Shown here: positions 38,989 through 60,101 of the stretch, piece by piece
Position numbering within the stretch: position 1 is the first letter of the stretch
Layout of the letters: each line of letters begins with the position of its first letter
NCBI RefSeq assembly: GCF_028330965.1
Contig: NZ_JAQMUB010000066.1
Location: 1 to 64,000, forward strand
Source of the DNA: Oscillatoria sp. CS-180
GTDB lineage: Bacteria > Cyanobacteriota > Cyanobacteriia > Phormidesmidales > Phormidesmidaceae
Length of the DNA: 64,000 bases
Direction of reading: 5' to 3'
Program-made: the position numbers and the translations under genes
Notes under the pieces: model-generated
The model's database searches: none
Told to the model about the DNA's origin: nothing
What the model saw: the letters and a program-made list of their open reading frames with translations, nothing else

Positions 38989-41900
38989 TTGAAGCACGAT
39001 CGCATAGCTAAAGCAGTACAGCAAATGACGGCACCGTTAGGGACAGGGTTCAGCAAGAGCATGGGAACAGGTGCAGATCGGGTGGACTATAAGATGTTGA
39101 TGCAGCAGGCTTTAGTCAAGCTAGAGAGCTTACAAAGCCGGCTGAAAGCTAAAGAAACTCAGGAACGAGAGGCGATCGCCTTGGTTGGCATGGGGTGTCG
39201 TTTTCCTCAGAATATTGCTGACCCTGATTCTTTTTGGCAGGCGCTTGTGTCAGGGTACAATGCCGTTTCGGACGTGCCTAATAGTCGATGGCAGGTTGAC
39301 GCTTATTACAGTGATGATCTGTCTGAATTGGGGAAAATCAGTACCCGCCGGGGCAGCTTTTTGCAGCATGTTGACCAGTTTGATCCTCAGTTCTTTGGTA
39401 TTTCGCCTCGTGAAGCTCGCAGCTTAGACCCCCAGCAGCGTCTCTTACTAGAGGTCAGCTGGGAAGCGCTCGAAGCCGCCAATCAGCAGCCTGAGCAACT
39501 CTTTAAGCGGCCCGTTGGGGTTTTCGTGGGGATCTGCAATAACGACTACGGTCAGCTGCTGCGAGATTCTAGCGACCTCGATCATATTGATGCTTACTTC
39601 TGCACGGGCAATGCTCCTAGCGTGGCGGCAGGGCGACTGTCTTACTGGTTGGGTCTCACTGGACCGAGTTTGGCGATCGATACGGCCTGCTCATCCTCCC
39701 TAGTAGCAGTACATCTTGCTTGCCAGAGTTTGCGGCAGCGAGAGTGTGAACTGGCCCTGGTAGGAGGCGTGAATGTTTTGCTATCGCCCGTAACCAGCAT
39801 CAACTTTTCCAAGGCTCGTATGTTGGCTCCAGATGGTCAATGTAAAGCCTTTGCTCAGTCTGCTGACGGTTATGGTCGGGGAGAGGGCTGCGGCGTAGTG
39901 GTGCTCAAGCGATTATCGACAGCATTGGCGGAAGGCGATCGCGTCTTAGCTGTTATCCGGGGGTCGGCGGTCAATCAAGATGGGCCTAGCGCAGGCTTGA
40001 CCGTCCCAAACGGTCCTGCACAGCAGGCGGTGATTCAGCAAGCACTACGTCAGGCTCAGGTTGCTCCAGAAGACGTGAGCTATGTAGAAGCACATGGAAC
40101 CGGTACGGCATTGGGAGACCCGATTGAGTTGGGTGCTTTGGGCATTGCACTGGGGCCGGCCGAGCGGCGATCGCATCCTCTTCAGGTCGGTTCCGTCAAA
40201 ACGAATTTAGGCCATTTAGAAGGGGCTGCTGGAGTCGCAGGATTGATTAAGGCAGTCCTCTGTTTACAGCATCAAGCAATTCCACCCCATCTACACTTTG
40301 AAACGCCAACACCTCATGTGGACTGGACAAAACTGCCTATTCACATCCCTACGAGCGTCCTCCCTTGGCCGTCTGAAGCTGGGCGGCGGATTGCTGGGGT
40401 CAGTTCTTTTGGGTTTAGCGGTACGAATGCTCATGTGGTTTTGGAAGCAGCTGAGACTGCGGTCGCGTCTGAAAGAACCTCGGCCTCTCATCGCCCCAAT
40501 CACGACTCTAATCAGCCCGAGCGGTCCTGGCACCTGTTGACCCTATCGGCTAAATCAGAAGCCGCGTTGATGGCAATGGCGGTCCAGATTCAGACCTATC
40601 TCACCGACTATCCAGAGGTCTCGTTGGCGGATGTCTGTTTCACAACGAATCGCTACCGCAGTCATTTCCCTTGTCGGCTGGCAGTGGTGGCAGATACTCG
40701 CGCAGGGGTTCAAGCAACTTTAGAGGCGGCAGCCCACGATACACCGACTCAAAGCCTCATTCGGGGGCAGCGTCTTGGCGCTCCACAGGTGGTTTTCGGA
40801 TTTAGCGGAGAGAGTCATCAGGTTGTCAATCTGGGTCGACAGCTCTACGAAAGCCAACCCTACTTTCGTCAGATCATTCAGCAGTGCGAGGCCATGCTGG
40901 AGCCCGACCTGCCCAATTTACTGACGGCGATGCTGTATCCAGCTGAGAATGCGATAGAGCAAACTGCTTCTAAGTTGTGTCATCCCGCCTATGGTTATCC
41001 AGTCCTCTTTGCGGTGGAGTACGCTCTGGCGCAGTTGTGGCAACGCTGGGGGATTCAACCCGTTGCCGTTTGGGGCGATGGGGTTGGTGAACTGGTGGCT
41101 GCTTGTATCGCGGGGGTATTCAGCCTGTCGGATGGGCTACGGCTAGCGATCGCTCATGGAACTGAGATCGCAGCCCTATCGATGCCTACCGTTTCAACCC
41201 GTCAGAGAGCCTGTCGGAAAACGGGAGATCGCGCATCGTTGGTCGCCGCGTCCCACACTACTACCCTGGATTCCCTGGCTCAAGGTATTGCCTATACCCC
41301 AGCTAAAGTCCCACTGGTGTCTAGCAGAGCTGGACGTTTACCACTAGAGATGGGGACTGATGCCGCGTATTGGAGTCGTCCTCTAGCGATTGCTGCTCAG
41401 ACAACGGAGAGGCTGAAGGGACTAGAAGCGATAGGGGGGAGTCATTGGTTAGAAATAGGACTCGATCCAGCGTTAGCGATGCCCGATTCGAGCCAGGATA
41501 CTCGGCCAGCGGCGACGTGGCTATCAAGCTTGCAATTGCATCAGTCTGATTGGCAAACCCTGCTCATGAGTTTGGCCGTGCTCTATACCCAAGGAGCTGA
41601 TGTAGATTGGCAAGGGTTTGAGCAAGACTTTTGCGATCGCCAGCAGGTTGTTCTGCCAACGTACCCTTTTCAACGGCAGCGGTACTGGGTTGATTTGCCG
41701 GAGAAGCATCAATTAAGTTCGTCGATTCTCCCCCCTTCCTCTCTTTTGCAGGAGTTGCAGGCAGGACAGGTTGACTCAGTGCTGCGTCAGTTGCAGCCGG
41801 GACTGACTCCAGCCGAAGCCGCCTGTTTGCCTAAACTGCTGTCGTACCTGGCTGGAGACGCGCCGTTAGCGACTCTGTCAGAACCCGCTGATCCAGAGCT

Positions 41901-43917
41901 AGGCGATGCATTCTATCAGGTGAAATGGCAGCCTTGGGAGCGATCGCAAATCTCCCCTGATTCGAGCAGGACGGCAGAGGCGTGGCTGATTCTAGCAGAT
42001 AGTAAGGGCCTTGGGTCTGCTTTGGCCCAGGCGTTAGAGCAACAGGGTCACCGCTGTGTCCTCGTCTACGCAGCGACGGCAACCAAAACTCCTCAAAATA
42101 AAGCCCCTCAAAATGCGGTTGGCCTAGACAGTTATCAAGTGCAGCCGGAAGCGACCACTGCTTGGAGCGACCTGTTAGGCCCGACTGGGCCACTGGCGGG
42201 GCAAACCTTTCAACGCATCGTGCACCTGTGGAATCTTGATATTTCAACAGTGGAGAGTGAAGAGACCTTGTCTCAAGCCCAGCAGTGGGGCTGTGGCAGC
42301 ACCTTGCACCTCATCCAATGGATTGTTCGGCAAGCCAGCCCAGTGCCCTGTCGGCTCTGGATGGTGACGCAAGGAGCGGTGCCTGTCGCCCGGTCTGCTC
42401 TGACCGTTGCTCAGTCTCTCGTTTGGGGCATGGGTCGAGCGATTGCATGGGAGCATCCAGAGCTGTGGGGTGGACTACTCGATGTCGATTTAGAGCTGCC
42501 ACAGGCCGCTATCGTTGAAACGCTACTTCCCGATTTGCTGCACCCCACTGCCGAAAACCAGATTGCCTATCGGCAGCAGCAACGCTACGTGCCGCGATTG
42601 GTTTCCGTCTCGATTCCTAAAACTTCCCTACCTTATCCAATACAGGCCGAGGGGACTTATTGGATTACGGGGGGTGTGGGTGCCTTAGGGCTGAAGCTGG
42701 CAGACTGGCTCGTGACTCAGGGGGCACGAAAGCTCGTGCTGACGAGTCGTCACCCGCCGTCAGAAACAGCTCAAGGCGCGATCGCACAACTCCAGGCAGA
42801 AACGGATGCAATCATCCAGGTTTTATCGGCAGATGTCACTCAAGCTTCAGACATAGAGGCGGTGCTGGACCATATTCAGGCAACCATGCCGCCACTGCGG
42901 GGAATTTTTCACGCCGCTGGAGTGTTGGAAGACGGTATTTTGTTGCAGCAAAGTTGGCCTCAATTTGAGCGAGTTTTACAGCCTAAGGTCACAGGGGCAT
43001 GGCTTTTGCATCGTTTAACGCAGACATTACCGCTGGATTATTTTGTTTGCTTCTCCTCAGTCGCCGCGCTGATGGGATCTCCCGGTCAGGCTAACTATGC
43101 CGCTGCTAATGGGTTTCTCGATGCCCTAGCCCATTACCGCCAGCAGCAAGGGTTAGTCGCGTTAAGTATTAACTGGGGACCTTGGGCGCAAGCCGGAATG
43201 GCGAATCGGTTGCAGCAGCCCTACCAGCAGCGACTGACTCAGCGGGGGATTCGGACCCTGTCTCCTAGTCAAGCCCTGCACGCCTTTGAGCGGGCCCTGG
43301 GTCGCGGCCCAACCGACCCGCAAATGGCGGTGCTATCGGTCGAGTGGTCTCAATTTTTCCAACAGCAAGGAGCCGTGCAGACCCTGCCGCTGTTGGCGGA
43401 ACTGCGAGCGACGAGGGCCGCAGAGATGTCGTCAGCCCAACTTATGGGCGAATTACGCCAAGAATTGCTGTCTCTGCAACCGGATGACCGCGTTAAGCGC
43501 TTAATTCAGTTTCTCCAGACTGAACTGAGTTGGGTGTTGGGGGGCAATGGCGAAGCGTTGGCGACTACCCAAACTGGGTTTTTTGAGCTAGGGCTTGATT
43601 CGCTCATGGCAATAGATCTAAAAACTCGGCTGGAAACGGCTTTGGCCTGTTCCCTTCAGCTGACGACGTTTTTCCAATATCCAACAGTCGCGTCTCTAGC
43701 CGCTTATCTAGTGTCAACGCTAGAGCCAGAAGAGGAACCTGACAGTATTGGCCAGGGGACGCTGACGCAGCAACGGGTGAGAGATGGTCCTGATGCAGCC
43801 GCATCGGTTAATCCACACAGGTCCATGATGCAGCGCGTGCAGCAGCGGGTGCAAAAGCAACAGCAGGCAATGGCGACAGACCGTGCATTGAACCAGCCCA
43901 GAAGGAAGTCTTTATGA
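38989..43917 (+). CDS. Type I PKS module KS-AT(degenerate)-KR-ACP
   Basis: The 1642-residue protein starts at TTG (38989) with no strong ribosome site; later ATGs at 39025 and 39094 are alternatives. A helical docking segment precedes KS (about 60-490), with the triad Cys234-His369-His409. The AT-like domain (about 600-850) lacks the catalytic Ser and His (see separate entry). No DH is evident. A KR follows (Rossmann Gly-Gly-Val-Gly-Ala-Leu-Gly near 1227, with Ser, Tyr and Asn of the catalytic set visible), then an ACP with Leu-Gly-Leu-Asp-Ser, phosphopantetheine Ser1538. It ends in a basic docking tail. Its stop overlaps the start of the next gene (ATGA). The module would add a beta-hydroxy two-carbon unit if malonyl is supplied from elsewhere. 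Confidence 0.9.
40790..41530 (+). other. Inactive acyltransferase domain in PKS module 1
   Basis: The domain is recognisable by Leu-Tyr-Glu-Ser near the start, [11 protein letters not shown], and [10 protein letters not shown]. The Gly-His-Ser-x-Gly elbow reads Gly-Asp697-Gly698-Val-Gly, so the nucleophile Ser and its His neighbour are both gone. The His-Ala-Phe-His-Ser motif reads His-Thr-Thr-Thr-Leu near residue 755. The interval between the two motifs is about 60 residues instead of about 100, so the small subdomain is largely missing. The intact AT in the next protein (Ser629, His728) gives the contrast. Confidence 0.85.
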
Positions 43918-46900
43918 GTCACGCAAGTCAGTCTCACCTCGATAGAAGCATTGCCATCATCGGCATGGCTGGCACCTTTCCCGGTGCTAGAAACATTGAT
44001 CAGTTCTGGCAAAACTTGCATGCGGGAACGGAGTCAATCCAAGCGTTGTCCGATGAAGCATTAACAGCAGCAGGAGTGGAGCGATCGCTGTTAGCTGACC
44101 CCAGCTACATCAAGATGGGGGCCTTGTTGGAGGAGATTGATCACTTCGATGCTAGCTTTTTTGGCTTTTCTCCGAGCGAAGCGGCCATTATGGATCCCCA
44201 GCATCGTCTAGTCCTGGAGTGTGCCTGGGAAGCGCTCGAAAATGCTGGCTATGTTCCTAATGACGGCAATGGCTGGACAGGAGTCTATGTTGGAGGCAGC
44301 CTTAGTACGTATTTGCTGTACAACCTAGCCCGCAACCGCGATCTAGTTAAAGCCGTCGGTTTACCCATTCTTCTGGGCAACGACAAGGACTACATTCCCA
44401 CCCGCATTTCCTACAAGTTGAACCTAAAGGGGCCTAGCTTCAGCGTCAGTACGGCGTGTTCAACCTCTCTAGTGGCAGTACATCTCGCTTGTCAGGATTT
44501 GCTGAGCCAGCAGTGTGACATGGCCCTCGCCGGCGGTGTCGAGGTGAAGGTACCCCATGCTGGCTATGTGTATCGGGAGGGCGACATTTTTGCTCCCGAT
44601 GGTCACTGCCGCAGTTTTGATGCTCGGGCCCAGGGCACGATTTTTGGCAGTGGTTTAGGTCTCGTCGTGCTCAAGCGCTATCAAGATGCGATCGCCGACG
44701 GTGACCATATCCACGCCGTGATTCGGGGCACGGCCCTCAACAACGATGGTTCAGAGAAGGTCGGCTATACGGCCCCTAGCATCAACGGACAAGCGGAGGT
44801 GATTGCATTGGCACAGGCGATCGCCGGGGTCGAGCCAGAGTCGATCACCTATGTAGAAACCCACGGCACCGGTACCTTAGTCGGCGATCCCATTGAATTT
44901 AAAGCGCTAGAAACCGCCTTTCGGGCGGGGACTGATCGCAATCAGTTTTGCGCCATCGGTTCAGTGAAAACCAATATTGGTCATTTGAACAGTGCTTCAG
45001 GCATTGCCGGACTGATTAAAACCGTACTCGCCCTCAAGCACCATCAACTGCCAGCCAGTCTTCATTTTGAGACTCCGAATCCAGCCATTGATTTTGAGCA
45101 TAGCCCTTTCTACGTCAACACGCAGCTGCGGGAATGGACATCCCAGGATCAGCCGCTACGAGCTGGAATCAACTCTTTTGGCATCGGCGGCACCAACAGT
45201 CATATCGTGCTTGAAGAAGCCCCACCCTGTCCGGCAAGTACTCCATCTCGTCCCTGGCAATTGCTACTGCTGTCGGCTAAAACGCCAACAGCTCTCGACC
45301 AGTCAACAGAACGGATGGTGAGCCACTTGCAGCAGCCGGAGTCAGAATTAGCCGACGTGGCGTATACCCTGCAAGTGGGCCGGCAAGCCTTCGAACATCG
45401 GCGCATGTTGGTGTGTCAAACTTCGGAGGAGGCTGCACAGCATTTGGGAAATCTTGCCTCTGATCGCGTCCTGACGCGCAGTCGGGTCTCAGCGCCCCAT
45501 TCTGTTGTCTTCCTGTTTCCAGGACAAGGTGCTCAGTACGTCAATATGGGGCGCGATCTGTATGACAGTGAACCGTTATTTCGCGCTTGTGTGGATGACT
45601 GTGCTGAGCAGTTACAGCCCCATCTGGGTTTGGATCTGCGCCCAATTTTATATTCCGATAATGAAGCCGCGATCGCGACGGCCACCCATCAGCTACAGCA
45701 GACTGCGATCGCCCAACCTGCCCTGTTTGTCATTGAATATGCTCTAGCGCAGCTATGGATCACCTGGGGCGTTCAGCCGGAAGCGATGCTGGGTCACAGT
45801 GTTGGCGAATATGTGGCGGCCTGTTTGGCCGGTGTGTTTTCCCTCGAAACGGCCTTAGCGCTGATTGCCATTCGGGGACGGTTAATGCAGCAGATGCCGT
45901 CTGGGGCCATGCTGGCAATTTCGCTGGCCGCTGATGCCCTGGCACCCTGGTTGGGGCCTGAACTGGAACTCGCTGTCCTCAATGGCCCCAACTCGTCTGT
46001 CGTGTCGGGGCCTGAGGCCGCGATCGCAGACCTACAGCAACGCCTCCAAGCCCAATCAATTAACTGCCGGCGTTTGCAGACTTCCCATGCCTTTCACTCT
46101 CAGATGATGGCGCCCATAGTAGAGACCTTTGTGGCAGACGTTGCGACAAACTCTCTCCAGGCTCCTCAGATACCGTATCTTTCCAACGTAACCGGCACTT
46201 GGATTACGGCAACAGAAGCGACCCAGCCTGAGTATTGGGGACAACATCTGCGGCAGACCGTTCAGTTTTCAAGCGGAGTAGAGCAACTGCTGCTTGATCC
46301 CCATGCCATTGTTCTAGAGGTTGGCCCAGGCAGAACGCTGACCTCGTTAATACGACGGCAGTTTACGGTGGAGTGCGATCGCTTACTGCTGACCAGCTTG
46401 CGTCATCCCAAGGAGCAAAAATCAGATGCGGCGGGGCTAATGACGACCCTGGGACAGCTTTGGCTGGCGGGCTGTGACCTCAATTGGCGAGCGTTTTATC
46501 AGCACGAGCAGCGGTATCGCGTTCCCCTACCGACATATCCGTTTCAGCGAAAACGCTACTGGGTTGATCCGGTCGATTCGTTGGACAGTACCGACGCCAC
46601 TGTGAAGCAGACCGATCTAGCCGATTGGTTCTATATCCCTACTTGGAAACGGGCCATCCCCCTGTTTCAGCCGCAGCCACAGCATGATGTTGCCTCACCC
46701 GTCCTAATTTTCCTCGATGAGCAAGGCTGGGGACAGCAACTGGCCAGCCGACTGAGCCAAGCTCAGAAAAAGGTCATCACAGTGCAGGTGGGGGAGACCT
46801 TCGCGCAGGTTGCTGAAGACGCTTATTGCCTTAATCCCGGTGAACTGCACGACTATAAGCAGTTTTGCAAAGTCCTCTCTGAGAAAAACTGTTTACCTCA

Positions 46901-48650
46901 AACGGTCCTGCATCTGTGGAACTTAACGTCTGAAACAGCCTCGAAAACACCTGAATGTGTGCATTGTGGTTCGGCTCAAACCAAGAAAAACGGGTTTTAC
47001 AAGGGACAGCAGGCTTATCGATGTAAGCACTGTAAGCGACAGTTCTTAGCCTCAGCTGTAGTTCAGGTCGAAATTCAGCAGCGGCTAGCGAGACTGACGG
47101 CTCAACAGCAGCAGAGCTTCTACAGTTTGATTTACTGGGCGCAAGCCATCAGCAAGTATCTGATGACCGATCGCTGCCAAATTGCCGTCGTTTCTAATCA
47201 GCTTCAGTCTGTCTTAGGAACCGAGACCCTATGTCCCGAAAAAGGAACGCTGTTGGGACCCGTCACGGTGATTCCCCAGGAGTACCCCAATTTGAGCTGC
47301 TGCTCTATTGATCTGGCGCTGTCGAAGCGGGGAAAAATGACTCATCCTGATTGGGTTGATGTCGTTTTGGCGGAGGTTATCCAGGCAGAACCAGCCCGTA
47401 TGGTCGCTTATCGTACCGGTCAGCGCTGGCTTCCTCTGTATGAATCACAACGACTGGAGGTAGATACCGCATCCTCGATCGCCCTCAAGCCCAAAGGTCT
47501 CTATATGATTACAGGCGGATTAGGGGGATTGGGGTTGGCCATTGCCCATGATTTGGCCCAGCGAGTCCAGGCAAAGCTGGTGCTGATCGGGCGATCGCCT
47601 TTTCCACCCGCATCAGAATGGGACTATTGGCTACAGGAACAGGGCGAAGACAATAGGACAAGTCAAAAGATACGTCAGCTTCAGGCGTTAGAAGATCTAG
47701 GCGCAGAGGTCCTGATCCTCCAGGCTGATGTGACTAACCTGGATTCGCTGCTGGCTGCTATGGAGCAGATTGATCAGCGGTGGGGGACTTTGAATGGCGT
47801 CATCCATGCTGCTGGGATTGCCGGCGGCTGCATTGTGCAACGGCAGAAACCCGCGATCGCAGACAATGTCCTACAGCCCAAATTGCAAGGTACGTTACAT
47901 TTGCTGGCAGCTTTACAAGAGCAGCCACTAGACTTCCTGGTGCTGTTTTCTTCTCTGGCCTCCAAATTGGGAGGGCTGGGGCAAGTCGCTTACTGTGCGG
48001 CCAATGCCTTTCTCGATGCCTTTGCCATTGCTGAATCAGCTCGACCCGATCGCAGAACAGTCGCCATCAATTGGGACTTTTGGCAAGACATTGGGATGGG
48101 GGTGACTACTGAAATCCCCGAAGACATTAAGGCCTTTCGGGTCGCAGAACTTCAGCAGGGCATGACTCCTCAAGAGGGGTTAGAGGCATTTCACCGGATT
48201 TTATCCGGCTGTGTTGTGCCGCAAGTGCTCGTTTCAACGACTTCTTTCACCCACCGCATCGATCAGTGGATTCAGCTAAAGGCGCTATCCGAAGCCACCA
48301 GCTTTGAGTCTGTGGGTGTGACTGAGCGCTACAGCCGCCCCGAATTAGCCAATCTTTATGTCCCGCCGAGGGATGAGCTGGAGGAACAGCTGGCCGAGAT
48401 CTTCCAGTCGGTCATTGGCATTGATCAGGTCGGCATCCACGACAATTTCTTTGAGCTAGGCGGGCACTCCCTGATGGCAACCCAAGTGTTATCCCGACTA
48501 CGAGAGGTGCTTAAAACCGAAGTGCAGTTGCATAGCTTATTCGAGACGCCAACAGTCGCCGGAATTGCCAGCACTAGCCGCCCGGCGGATAACTCAGCTC
48601 CTACCGTTGACGACCGCACCGCCGTGACTCGTGAGGAGGTCGTACTATGA
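43914..48650 (+). CDS. Type I PKS module KS-AT-KR-carrier with zinc-ribbon insertion
   Basis: The 1578-residue protein has KS (about 10-425; Cys182, His317, His357), then an intact AT (Gly-His-Ser629-Val-Gly, His-Ala-Phe-His728-Ser) of the malonyl-type His-Ala-Phe-His pattern. A KR structural half is interrupted by a zinc ribbon (see separate entry). The KR catalytic half has Gly-Gly-Leu-Gly-Gly-Leu-Gly near 1200. The carrier has the PCP-style Leu-Gly-Gly-His-Ser, Ser1519. No DH, ER or methyltransferase is seen, so it adds a beta-hydroxy C2 unit. The carrier at its C-terminus suits hand-over to the condensation domain of the next protein. The ATGA overlap with the upstream gene and GGAAG before the start support the call. 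Confidence 0.92.
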   Translation: MSHASQSHLDRSIAIIGMAGTFPGARNIDQFWQNLHAGTESIQALSDEALTAAGVERSLLADPSYIKMGALLEEIDHFDASFFGFSPSEAAIMDPQHRLVLECAWEALENAGYVPNDGNGWTGVYVGGSLSTYLLYNLARNRDLVKAVGLPILLGNDKDYIPTRISYKLNLKGPSFSVSTACSTSLVAVHLACQDLLSQQCDMALAGGVEVKVPHAGYVYREGDIFAPDGHCRSFDARAQGTIFGSGLGLVVLKRYQDAIADGDHIHAVIRGTALNNDGSEKVGYTAPSINGQAEVIALAQAIAGVEPESITYVETHGTGTLVGDPIEFKALETAFRAGTDRNQFCAIGSVKTNIGHLNSASGIAGLIKTVLALKHHQLPASLHFETPNPAIDFEHSPFYVNTQLREWTSQDQPLRAGINSFGIGGTNSHIVLEEAPPCPASTPSRPWQLLLLSAKTPTALDQSTERMVSHLQQPESELADVAYTLQVGRQAFEHRRMLVCQTSEEAAQHLGNLASDRVLTRSRVSAPHSVVFLFPGQGAQYVNMGRDLYDSEPLFRACVDDCAEQLQPHLGLDLRPILYSDNEAAIATATHQLQQTAIAQPALFVIEYALAQLWITWGVQPEAMLGHSVGEYVAACLAGVFSLETALALIAIRGRLMQQMPSGAMLAISLAADALAPWLGPELELAVLNGPNSSVVSGPEAAIADLQQRLQAQSINCRRLQTSHAFHSQMMAPIVETFVADVATNSLQAPQIPYLSNVTGTWITATEATQPEYWGQHLRQTVQFSSGVEQLLLDPHAIVLEVGPGRTLTSLIRRQFTVECDRLLLTSLRHPKEQKSDAAGLMTTLGQLWLAGCDLNWRAFYQHEQRYRVPLPTYPFQRKRYWVDPVDSLDSTDATVKQTDLADWFYIPTWKRAIPLFQPQPQHDVASPVLIFLDEQGWGQQLASRLSQAQKKVITVQVGETFAQVAEDAYCLNPGELHDYKQFCKVLSEKNCLPQTVLHLWNLTSETASKTPECVHCGSAQTKKNGFYKGQQAYRCKHCKRQFLASAVVQVEIQQRLARLTAQQQQSFYSLIYWAQAISKYLMTDRCQIAVVSNQLQSVLGTETLCPEKGTLLGPVTVIPQEYPNLSCCSIDLALSKRGKMTHPDWVDVVLAEVIQAEPARMVAYRTGQRWLPLYESQRLEVDTASSIALKPKGLYMITGGLGGLGLAIAHDLAQRVQAKLVLIGRSPFPPASEWDYWLQEQGEDNRTSQKIRQLQALEDLGAEVLILQADVTNLDSLLAAMEQIDQRWGTLNGVIHAAGIAGGCIVQRQKPAIADNVLQPKLQGTLHLLAALQEQPLDFLVLFSSLASKLGGLGQVAYCAANAFLDAFAIAESARPDRRTVAINWDFWQDIGMGVTTEIPEDIKAFRVAELQQGMTPQEGLEAFHRILSGCVVPQVLVSTTSFTHRIDQWIQLKALSEATSFESVGVTERYSRPELANLYVPPRDELEEQLAEIFQSVIGIDQVGIHDNFFELGGHSLMATQVLSRLREVLKTEVQLHSLFETPTVAGIASTSRPADNSAPTVDDRTAVTREEVVL
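46956..47045 (+). other. IS1-InsA-like zinc ribbon embedded in the PKS
   Basis: Cys1015-x2-Cys1018 and Cys1037-x2-Cys1040 frame an 18-residue spacer with Lys-Lys-Asn-Gly, then Lys-Gly-Gln-Gln-Ala-Tyr-Arg before the second pair and Lys-Arg-Gln-Phe after it. This is the layout of the N-terminal zinc ribbon of IS1-type InsA transposases, where the sequence reads Cys-Pro-x-Cys...Lys-Asn-Gly...Arg-Tyr-x-Cys-x-x-Cys-x-Arg-x-Phe. It lies between His-Leu-Trp-Asn-Leu-Thr and Phe-Tyr-Ser-Leu of the KR structural subdomain. These are usually only about 15-20 residues apart, so roughly 45-50 residues appear to be added. The insert keeps the frame, and the PKS continues normally on both sides. Confidence 0.75.
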
Positions 48651-51280
48651 CCCACTCATCACCCAGCTTGTCTACTTTGATGGCTCGCCTCAAGGCGCAG
48701 GATGTGCAGCTACGGGCTGAGAACGGGCGTCTGCACTGCAATGCACCAACCGGGGTTCTAACAGCAGAGCTGCAGGCCGAGATTGTAGCCCATAAGCCTG
48801 CTCTTCTAAAGATGCTGGCGGCAGCAGCGTCCGAGACAGCGGCGATCGCGCCTGTACCCCATTCAGGGCGTCGTCCTCTTTCCTTTGGACAGCAGCGGAT
48901 TTGGGTCCTCGAACAGTTGGAAGATAAGTCCGCTACTTACAATGAATCTTTTCTCCTGCGCTTGGAGGGGCCGCTACAAATTGCCGGTCTGCGCTATAGC
49001 CTCCAACAGGTTTGGCAACGTCACGAGGTCCTGCGCTATAGCTTTCAATCTGCTGATGGGGTGGTCAGCGCCATCGTGAATGCTCCTATTCCGCTGTCCC
49101 TACCGATCGTGGATCTGCAAGCGTTAGCCTCTGCTCAACAGGCTGAGGTGGTTCAGCAGCGTGCGATCGCAGAGTCGCGGCGACCTTTTGACCTGGCAGT
49201 CGGTCCCCTGCTACGGCTTCAGCTTTTGCACTTGCAGCCGCAGTCTTTTGTCTTATTGTTGACGGCTCATCACATCATCTTTGATGGTTGGTCTCAGGCA
49301 GTTTTGTCGTATGAACTGCAAGCTGCTTACGCTGCCTATGTTGAGGGTAAACCGATGCCTTCAGCGCCTCTGCCAATCCAATATGGCGATTATGCGCTCT
49401 GGCAGCGGCAACAGTTTGAGGGCGATCGCCTCCGTCCTCAACTGCGTTATTGGCAGCAGCAGCTAGCAGGCGCACCCATGGTGATCGACCTGCCCACAGA
49501 CCGTCCTCGCCCTACCCTGACTAATTTTGAAGGGGGTGTTCATCCGTTTGAGTTGCCGGCTGAGGTCGTAACGGCTCTGCGGCAGCTCAGCCAGCAGGCG
49601 GGAGCCACGGTGTTTATGACGCTATTTGCTGCGTTCAACACGCTGCTGCATCGGTACACAGGACAAACCGACATTTTGATAGGAACCGATATTGCTAACC
49701 GGACTCGGATCGAACTAGAAAGGCTAATTGGGTTTTTCGTCAATCTGCTCGTGCTACGCACCGATTTGTCTGGCGATCCTTCTTTTCGGCAACTGTTAGA
49801 CCGGGTACGGCAAACCGCGATCGCGGCTTACCAGCATCAGGACTTGCCGTTTGAGAAATTAGTCGAAGCTCTCCAACCCGAACGGCAAACTGCTCACAAT
49901 CCGCTGGTGCAAGTTTTGTTTGTCTTTCAAAATACGCCTCCCCTGGTCTTGGAAGCAAATGGTCTACGGCTGACCTGGGGAGAATTTACGAATCAGGCTT
50001 CCCGGTTCGATCTGGCTTTGTTCATCAACGAACATCCGTGGGGGCTGGAGGGCGTTTGGAAATATAAGCGCGCCCTATTCGATCCGAAAACGGTGGCTCG
50101 GTTCTCACAGCAATTTTTAACGTTGCTTGACAGTCTGATCGCTCAGCCTAATGTCCCCATTAGCACCCTGGAACTACTGACGGAGACAGAAAAACAGCAG
50201 CAGTTTGACCAGCGGCAAGAACGGCAACGGGCTAAGGAGCAGCGCCTTAAAAGAACTCGGCGACGAGGGATCGATTTGGCCCATAAGCCTCTGCTGAGGG
50301 AAGGTCGACTCCAGCCCGATCAGCCGTTGCCCTGGATGATTGAGCCTAACCATCCAGCAGGTATCGATTTGGTTGCCTGGTGCCAAGAGCAGTCAGCCGC
50401 GATCGAGTCTCGCCTTTTGACGCATGGGGCTTTACTGTTTCGCGGTTTTGGAGCGATCGCTCCACAGCAGTTTGAGCAAGTTGCGGCGGCCCTTTGCCCA
50501 GGCTTGTTGACAGGCTATGGCGATCTGCCCCAGTTTGATCAAAGCGATCGCCTCTACCACTCCACGCCTTATCCCGCCGATAAAGCCATTCTGTTTCATA
50601 ACGAGAGCGCTCATCTACAGCGGTGGCCACTCAAACAGTTCTTCTGCTGTCAGGTGCCGGCTCAGCAAGGGGGCGCGACGCCACTTGTCGACTGTCGTGA
50701 ACTCTATCGGCGACTCCCCCCTGAGATCCGGACGCCATTTGAACAAAAGCAGGTGCGATACGTGCGCAACTTTGTCGAAGGTTTGGATGTGCGCTGGCAA
50801 GACTTTTTTCAAACAAACGATCCGGCCCTAGTTGAGTTGGCTTGTGTTCGGGCGGGCATCGAGTTTGAGTGGCGTACAGATGGAGGGCTGCGGCTCCAAA
50901 CCTGCTGTCCGGCCATCATCCACCATCCCAAAACGGCAGAGCCGCTGTTCTTTAACCAGCTGTTGTTGCATCACATTGCCTGTCTGAAGACGGTCGAACA
51001 GCGATCGCTGCGCTCCGTCTTCTCCGAATCGGACCTGCCGCGCCACGTCTACTACGGCGATGGGACGCCAATTGCCGATGACGTGATGACTCAGATCGAT
51101 GACCTTTACCAGCAGGTCGCGATCCGATTTACCTGGCAAGCCGGAGACATCCTGATGCTGGACAACATGCTGACTGCTCATGGTCGCGATCCCTTCAAGG
51201 GAGAACGGTTGCTGTTGGTGGCGATGGGCGAGCCGGTTTCCCAAACTGAGCAACCGCTGCTGGCAGAGATGACGTATTAA
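48647..51280 (+). CDS. NRPS condensation domain fused to a TauD-type aspartyl beta-hydroxylase
   Basis: The ATG overlaps the previous stop and follows GAGGAGGT. The 877-residue protein has a TubC-like N-terminal docking domain (about 8-60) and a condensation domain (about 78-520) with His208-His-Ile-Ile-Phe-Asp-Gly-Trp. There is a basic linker (Lys/Arg-rich, about 530-555) and a TauD/TfdA Fe(II)/2-oxoglutarate dioxygenase (about 555-865). Iron ligands are His651 and Glu653 (His-Asn-Glu) and distal His845, with Arg847 nearby. No A domain or carrier is present. Fusion of such hydroxylases to the C-terminus of an NRPS protein is known for beta-hydroxyaspartate siderophores (the IbetaHAsp type), which work with an interface domain and give L-threo product. 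The next gene begins with such a domain and an aspartate-type A domain. Confidence 0.88.
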   Translation: MTHSSPSLSTLMARLKAQDVQLRAENGRLHCNAPTGVLTAELQAEIVAHKPALLKMLAAAASETAAIAPVPHSGRRPLSFGQQRIWVLEQLEDKSATYNESFLLRLEGPLQIAGLRYSLQQVWQRHEVLRYSFQSADGVVSAIVNAPIPLSLPIVDLQALASAQQAEVVQQRAIAESRRPFDLAVGPLLRLQLLHLQPQSFVLLLTAHHIIFDGWSQAVLSYELQAAYAAYVEGKPMPSAPLPIQYGDYALWQRQQFEGDRLRPQLRYWQQQLAGAPMVIDLPTDRPRPTLTNFEGGVHPFELPAEVVTALRQLSQQAGATVFMTLFAAFNTLLHRYTGQTDILIGTDIANRTRIELERLIGFFVNLLVLRTDLSGDPSFRQLLDRVRQTAIAAYQHQDLPFEKLVEALQPERQTAHNPLVQVLFVFQNTPPLVLEANGLRLTWGEFTNQASRFDLALFINEHPWGLEGVWKYKRALFDPKTVARFSQQFLTLLDSLIAQPNVPISTLELLTETEKQQQFDQRQERQRAKEQRLKRTRRRGIDLAHKPLLREGRLQPDQPLPWMIEPNHPAGIDLVAWCQEQSAAIESRLLTHGALLFRGFGAIAPQQFEQVAAALCPGLLTGYGDLPQFDQSDRLYHSTPYPADKAILFHNESAHLQRWPLKQFFCCQVPAQQGGATPLVDCRELYRRLPPEIRTPFEQKQVRYVRNFVEGLDVRWQDFFQTNDPALVELACVRAGIEFEWRTDGGLRLQTCCPAIIHHPKTAEPLFFNQLLLHHIACLKTVEQRSLRSVFSESDLPRHVYYGDGTPIADDVMTQIDDLYQQVAIRFTWQAGDILMLDNMLTAHGRDPFKGERLLLVAMGEPVSQTEQPLLAEMTY

Positions 51281-59255: not shown

Positions 59256-59294
59256 GGCGCGATCGTGCTCATTTCTAGACTTCAGGAGCCTCCC

Positions 59295-60101
59295 ATGTTG
59301 CTTACCCCTCGGCAAATTCAGGACTACGAAGATACAGGAATGCTCTCGATTCCTCACTATTTCTCAATGGCAGAAATCGAAAGGCTGCGGTCAACGCTAC
59401 CTCGGCTGATGCAGAGCGAGAGTCCGAGTCGAGTTGTCGAAACCGATCAAAAAACAGTGAGGGCTTTGCATGGCTGTCATTTAGAGAGCGATATGCTGCA
59501 GCGGCTGGTTACCTTTGCGCGACTCATCGAACCTGCGCGTCTGCTGCTCCAGGGGGACGTGTACTGCTATCAGTTCAAAATCAACCTCAAAGCTGCCTAC
59601 ACAGGGGATGTCTGGCCCTGGCACCAAGATTTTGCTTTTTGGCAGCACGAAGACGATATGACCCATCCCTTAGCTGTCAATGCTGTCTTATTTCTGGACG
59701 ACTGCAATGACTTCAATGGGCCGCTCTACTTCATTCCAGGCTCGCACAACCACTCTTATGCTCACAACACTGCTGGTGCAGCAGACGCATCGGCTGCTTG
59801 GATCGCTAACGTCAGTGCCAAGCTCAAGTACACCCTAGACCAGAAAACAGTCACCCGCTTGGTGGAACAACACGGGCTAGTTGCAGCAAAAGGCAAGGCA
59901 GGGACAGCCCTATTTTTTCACTGCAACCTTGTCCACGGCTCTGTTCCCAATATTTCTCCCTACGATCGCCGCCTCATCATCATTACCTACAACAGCGTTC
60001 GCAATGCACCAATTTCCCTGGGCAAAAACCGACCTAGTTTCTTAGTCAATCGAGATACCACACCCCTGCAACCGTCCGTCGAAGAAACCCTCGTCTGCTG
60101 A
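59295..60101 (+). CDS. PhyH-family Fe(II)/2-oxoglutarate dioxygenase
   Basis: I choose the ATG at 59295, preceded by AGGAG at six bases; a GTG at 59265 would add 10 residues. The 268-residue protein has the facial triad His110-x-Asp112 (Trp-His-Gln-Asp) and His214 (Val-His-Gly-Ser), followed by an Arg for 2-oxoglutarate. It has Asn-Gly-Pro-Leu-Tyr-Phe-Ile-Pro-Gly-Ser-His in between, as in phytanoyl-CoA dioxygenases and the ectoine hydroxylase EctD. It sits between two NRPS genes in the same direction, so it most likely hydroxylates an amino acid or carrier-bound residue of the product. Which residue cannot be told. Confidence 0.85.
   Translation: MLLTPRQIQDYEDTGMLSIPHYFSMAEIERLRSTLPRLMQSESPSRVVETDQKTVRALHGCHLESDMLQRLVTFARLIEPARLLLQGDVYCYQFKINLKAAYTGDVWPWHQDFAFWQHEDDMTHPLAVNAVLFLDDCNDFNGPLYFIPGSHNHSYAHNTAGAADASAAWIANVSAKLKYTLDQKTVTRLVEQHGLVAAKGKAGTALFFHCNLVHGSVPNISPYDRRLIIITYNSVRNAPISLGKNRPSFLVNRDTTPLQPSVEETLVC

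Follow-up and report, generated by a model that had tools for sequence, protein, structure and literature searches.

The ketoreductase (KR) of a type I polyketide synthase (PKS) from Oscillatoria sp. CS-180 carries a four-cysteine ribbon that has been inserted in frame into a length-variable loop of its structural subdomain. This insertion, found in the window (the whole stretch of 64,000 nucleotides that was analysed), is well supported by the comparison with homologous KRs. A transposase-type origin of the ribbon is well supported by its resemblance to the N-terminus of IS1-family InsA, and we consider it reasonably probable that the ribbon is a self-folding, zinc-bound surface knob which came from an InsA-type piece and is tolerated by its host enzyme.

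The host module and the extent of the insert

The host gene (43914..48650, + strand) encodes a PKS module of 1578 aa with the order KS-AT-KR-ACP, as assigned from Pfam domains and from the motifs TACSTSL (residue 180), GHSVGEY (627), TGGLGGLG (1200), YCAAN (1360) and GGHSLMA (1516). The reading frame is open throughout, on both sides of the insert, as the original prediction had stated, and the module is apparently intact. It looks competent because the KS, AT, KR and ACP motifs are all there, and KR activity is predicted. The KR structural subdomain (psi-KR, residues ~895-1180; 46596..47453, +) was delimited by a PF21394 match (930-1007), an alignment with 96 homologs and an AlphaFold2 model, and is interrupted by the insert. 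The KR catalytic domain (residues 1195-1392; 47496..48089, +; PF08659, E 1.9e-46) contains the Rossmann motif GGLGGLG and, in the alignment with 5d2e, all of the active-site residues Lys, Ser, Tyr and Asn. The predicted position of the ribbon between ordinary segments of the structural subdomain was borne out, with PF21394 ending at residue 1007 before it and PF08659 beginning at 1195 after it.

The NRPS/PKS cluster around this gene spans ~75 kb. The first PKS (38989-43917) has a partial acyltransferase match (Acyl_transf_1, 132 aa) without the GHSxGE motif, and 48647-51280 encodes a fusion of a condensation domain and a TauD-type dioxygenase (C-TauD) with a TubC docking domain at the N-terminus. 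C-TauD stretches ~50% identical to the latter were found in many cyanobacteria, mostly inside larger proteins. The PhyH-family dioxygenase encoded amid NRPS genes at 59265-60101, for which the best model was ectoine hydroxylase (below cut-off), is probably a tailoring hydroxylase.

The four cysteines, Cys1015 (46956..46958), Cys1018 (46965..46967), Cys1037 (47022..47024) and Cys1040 (47031..47033), all on the + strand, are located within ECVHCGSAQTKKNGFYKGQQAYRCKHCKRQFLAS, between the PF21394 and PF08659 matches. None of 2000 shuffles of the PKS protein, which has 28 Cys, reproduced their spacing, C-x2-C-x18-C-x2-C, and chance cysteines are thereby ruled out. The ribbon also has a KNG turn and a CxxC(x)RQF end. 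The span first proposed, 46956-47045, corresponds exactly to C1015-F1044 and its cysteine codons were confirmed; the location was right, but the true insert is somewhat longer, ~44 aa from E1014 to R1057 (46953..47084, +). It consists of an IS1 InsA-like zinc ribbon core (E1014-S1047; 46953..47054, +), recognised by InsA identity, the IS1 profile and AlphaFold2, and of A1048-R1057 (47055..47084, +), which both AlphaFold2 models predict to extend the native helix 1046-1079 at its N-terminus and which may be a remnant of InsA or part of the loop. Profile search did not reject a zinc ribbon: Pfam found IS1595/InsA-type zinc ribbons (PF03811/PF12760) at the insert with E 4e-4 in a 131-aa piece, although the score of 14-21 bits missed the curated cut-off of 25-26. 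This is of little weight because IS1-annotated InsA, like other InsA-like proteins, misses the cut-off too.

Comparison with homologous ketoreductases

Ninety-seven KR structural subdomains were aligned, 16 from the same genome and its relatives, 80 from GTDB genomes and the studied KR itself. The loop that joins the HLW strand to the FYSLL helix was 14-38 aa long in the 96 homologs (mode 24) and 68 aa here. In a six-frame search with residues 893-1190 as the query, the same genome and its relatives gave two matches, adjoining on the DNA, that skipped positions ~121-165 of the query. The nearest full-length modules (G005, G010, G012, G020, G022 and G034), 55-58% identical over ~1000 aa, broke off at residue 1007-1017 and resumed at ~1057-1067 among the second halves listed, and the coordinates of the match pairs in G020, G010, G005 and G012 gave 42-44 extra residues in the studied KR. 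A ribbon is also missing from two sister KRs that the ~75 kb cluster encodes at 90.6 and 110.6 kb of the contig. The possibility that the segment is a normal part of the KR is ruled out by the loop lengths and by the full-length neighbours, all of which lack it. The KR otherwise shares its fold, NADPH motif and active-site residues with other type I PKS KRs with a psi-KR, such as the MlnE KR (5d2e) and EryKR1 (2fr0), and differs from them by the 44-aa ribbon.

Predicted structure of the ribbon

The AlphaFold2 model of the KR, built with an alignment of 55 KRs, had a mean pLDDT of 89.5 and a pTM of 0.92, and matched solved KRs (TM 0.82 to 5d2e; Z 36); the KR fold is thus predicted to be kept despite the insert. 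Within this model, whose alignment held no ribbon homolog, the ribbon formed two longer strands and a short one at a pLDDT of ~57-74, and modelled alone with five distant ribbons it reached ~91. In both models the last residues of the insert form the first part of the native helix 1046-1079 (residues 152-185 of the KR model, H43-76 of the ribbon-alone model), so that the ribbon is predicted to sit on an N-terminally lengthened native helix. Structure searches with the ribbon, at 35 residues near the limit of both methods, gave weak hits, largely zinc ribbons (Foldseek best E 0.29, VIA Z <5). One weak match was the zinc-ribbon-like small subunit of vanillic acid decarboxylase (ShVdcCD, 7ae4), likewise a small ribbon that accompanies an enzyme rather than DNA; the likeness seen is structural, and that ribbon is a separate chain, unlike the PKS insert.

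Possible role of the ribbon in the module

Most probably, the length-variable loop of the KR structural subdomain, which is likely to lie on the surface, took up in frame a piece of 102-132 nt that codes for the zinc ribbon at the N-terminus of InsA from the IS1 family, or of a protein very closely related to it. The four cysteines would hold one structural Zn2+ and the piece would therefore fold by itself, forming a knob on the extended helix; since the length of the loop varies among homologs, the loop should accept an independently folding piece, and the ribbon would be tolerated and kept for these reasons. The PKS module would remain active, and the ribbon would add no essential new chemistry and no DNA binding. 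The DNA contact originally suggested is unlikely: binding of the terminal repeats by IS1 InsA requires the zinc finger as well as the helix-turn-helix (HTH) (PMC12428005), and the HTH is absent here. Residue 1046 already begins the KR helix 1046-1079, and there is no YSxxxKQxCLKMY-type segment.

The ribbon might instead be truly exapted, i.e. a selected protein-protein module of transposon origin that docks or stabilises the KR or the assembly line, and may contact, for example, a neighbouring domain, the downstream C-TauD subunit or the partner in a KR/KR dimer. The four cysteines and the KNG/GxQ/RQF core are all retained, and such full keeping could mean selection for function, which speaks against mere tolerance. 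The codon usage of the insert, which matches that of the surrounding gene, permits long residence, and other host proteins have captured InsA-like ribbons, at the C-terminus of a TetR-family regulator and the N-terminus of an NYN-domain protein, and kept them across genera. Against exaptation, the sister KRs of the same cluster manage without a ribbon, and the KR-embedded ribbon was seen in one genome and one assembly only among those searched. We regard this reading as rather unlikely. The original prediction of an exapted transposon domain therefore stands as to transposase-type origin but not as to a selected new function, and the term exaptation has not yet been earned.

The TetR-family regulators (TetR_N + TetR_C_15, ~260-300 aa) carry the ribbon after a conserved VMKVM(K/I) segment (L056:1504-1629, L058:757-873, L024, L061, L057, L064, L026 and ~20 more loci). 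Both this ribbon and the PKS insert are InsA-like and fused to a host protein, but this one is C-terminal, conserved across genera and of a KQF sub-type, often with YLCK. Because of the conservation across genera it is likely a domesticated ribbon. The NYN-domain proteins (L060, L063, L065) are ~430 aa long and have the ribbon at their start.

A search of homologous clusters for the same insert, which had been proposed as a check, gave no second example. A peptide-pattern search of genome contigs found no ribbon-bearing KR. Orthologs bearing the insert were sought without success in 65 genomes of the order, in ~390 cyanobacterial genomes of the class (up to 10 candidates scored in each), in 78 of those class genomes (families f24 and f15) with all candidates rescored, and in the 80 GTDB loci that scored best. 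The plasmid search gave KR stretches or InsA matches and no clear KR carrying a ribbon, and searches of IMG/VR with the ribbon gave distant relatives only. One viral contig there (3300031539_007116; L181:1201-1305) encodes a distant InsA-like ribbon within an apparent intein of an anaerobic ribonucleotide reductase. Open-access literature, subscription papers lying outside the search, yielded no paper on a zinc ribbon with a polyketide synthase and ketoreductase, nor on an in-frame transposase insertion in a cyanobacterial polyketide synthase. To our knowledge, no transposase exaptation within a biosynthetic assembly-line enzyme has been described.

Source of the ribbon

The best matches to the ribbon were N-termini of cyanobacterial IS1-type InsA, with 56-64% identity over 33-36 aa and E values of ~1e-11 to 1e-12 in a small database. 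The insert shares with the IS1-family InsA ribbon (PF03811/PF12760 type) the Cys spacing, the KNG turn and the GxQxYxCKxCxRQF core, begins about where InsA begins, one residue before Cys1, and loses its likeness to InsA after QFLAS. It is without the HTH, the catalytic part InsB and the IS ends, and lies inside a PKS, whereas the InsA ribbon is the N-terminus of its protein. Of the positions invariant in 15 IS1 ribbons, the Pro that follows Cys1 is the only one not retained; in the RRG turn, the first Arg is also replaced.

Host proteins with ribbons of this type are common in cyanobacteria, and TetR-type ribbons share up to 18 of 33 residues with the insert, so a TetR-family regulator or an NYN protein, and not a transposase, could have been the donor. 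Profiles built without the insert gave it 60.2 bits for IS1, 44.0 for TetR and 34.0 for NYN; IS1 was thus ahead of TetR by 16 bits and of NYN by 26, the NYN profile comprising 3 sequences only. Leave-one-out scores were 55-79 bits for the 15 IS1 ribbons, which places the insert towards the bottom of their range, and 75-88 for the TetR ribbons, far more than the 44.0 bits of the insert. Its YRCK and RQF are also IS1-like, whereas all TetR ribbons have KQF. A host-protein donor is improbable on these grounds, and the likeness to the InsA N-terminus noted in the original prediction held up. The assignment to IS1-type InsA is good but not final because the ribbons compared had been picked for resembling the insert and the piece is short; ~33 residues give a weak phylogeny of the source, and this, together with the related ribbons in host proteins, counts against the tolerated InsA-derived knob.

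No donor IS closer than 64% at the amino acid level was found, and the best identity at the DNA level was 62% among the loci compared. At the edges of the insert there is neither a terminal inverted repeat nor an 8-9 bp target duplication, and the 7-nt pair ACCTGAA/TTCAGGT (46949/47062) is no more than expected by chance. These points also weigh against the InsA-derived knob, and a recent IS insertion with its ends is ruled out by the missing repeats. The genome's own contig C98 (L173 1-84) is cut off within a canonical IS1 InsA gene; IS1 elements therefore occur in this genome and probably break its assembly; that copy, just 42% identical over 26 aa, was rejected as the donor. The GC content of the insert is 47.7% against a mean of 54.5% in 44-codon blocks. 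Overall the insert does not have the look of a newly transposed element; its features would fit either a fragment captured through illegitimate recombination or the paring down of an old IS.

A recent neutral or mildly harmful insertion that is decaying, with the KR of the module impaired, would account for the singleton and for the replaced Pro and Arg. It is quite doubtful in view of the open frame, the intact active-site motifs, the codon usage, which is not foreign, and the failure to find a near-identical donor. An assembly or sequencing artefact, in which a stray InsA fragment was joined into the PKS gene, agrees with the presence in a single assembly and is very improbable given exact in-frame junctions on both sides, host-like codons, a position internal to the contig and no identical InsA elsewhere in the genome.

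Implications

The tolerated InsA-derived ribbon would be a case of domain insertion in a modular enzyme, which is of a known kind, with an unusual donor. Beside the fusions with TetR-family and NYN proteins, it would provide a clean case of transposase parts turning into modules of bacterial proteins. Assembly-line enzymes are hard to engineer, as inserted domains often destabilise them. A natural, self-folding insert marks the loop of the KR structural subdomain as a site which seems able to take a whole mini-domain.
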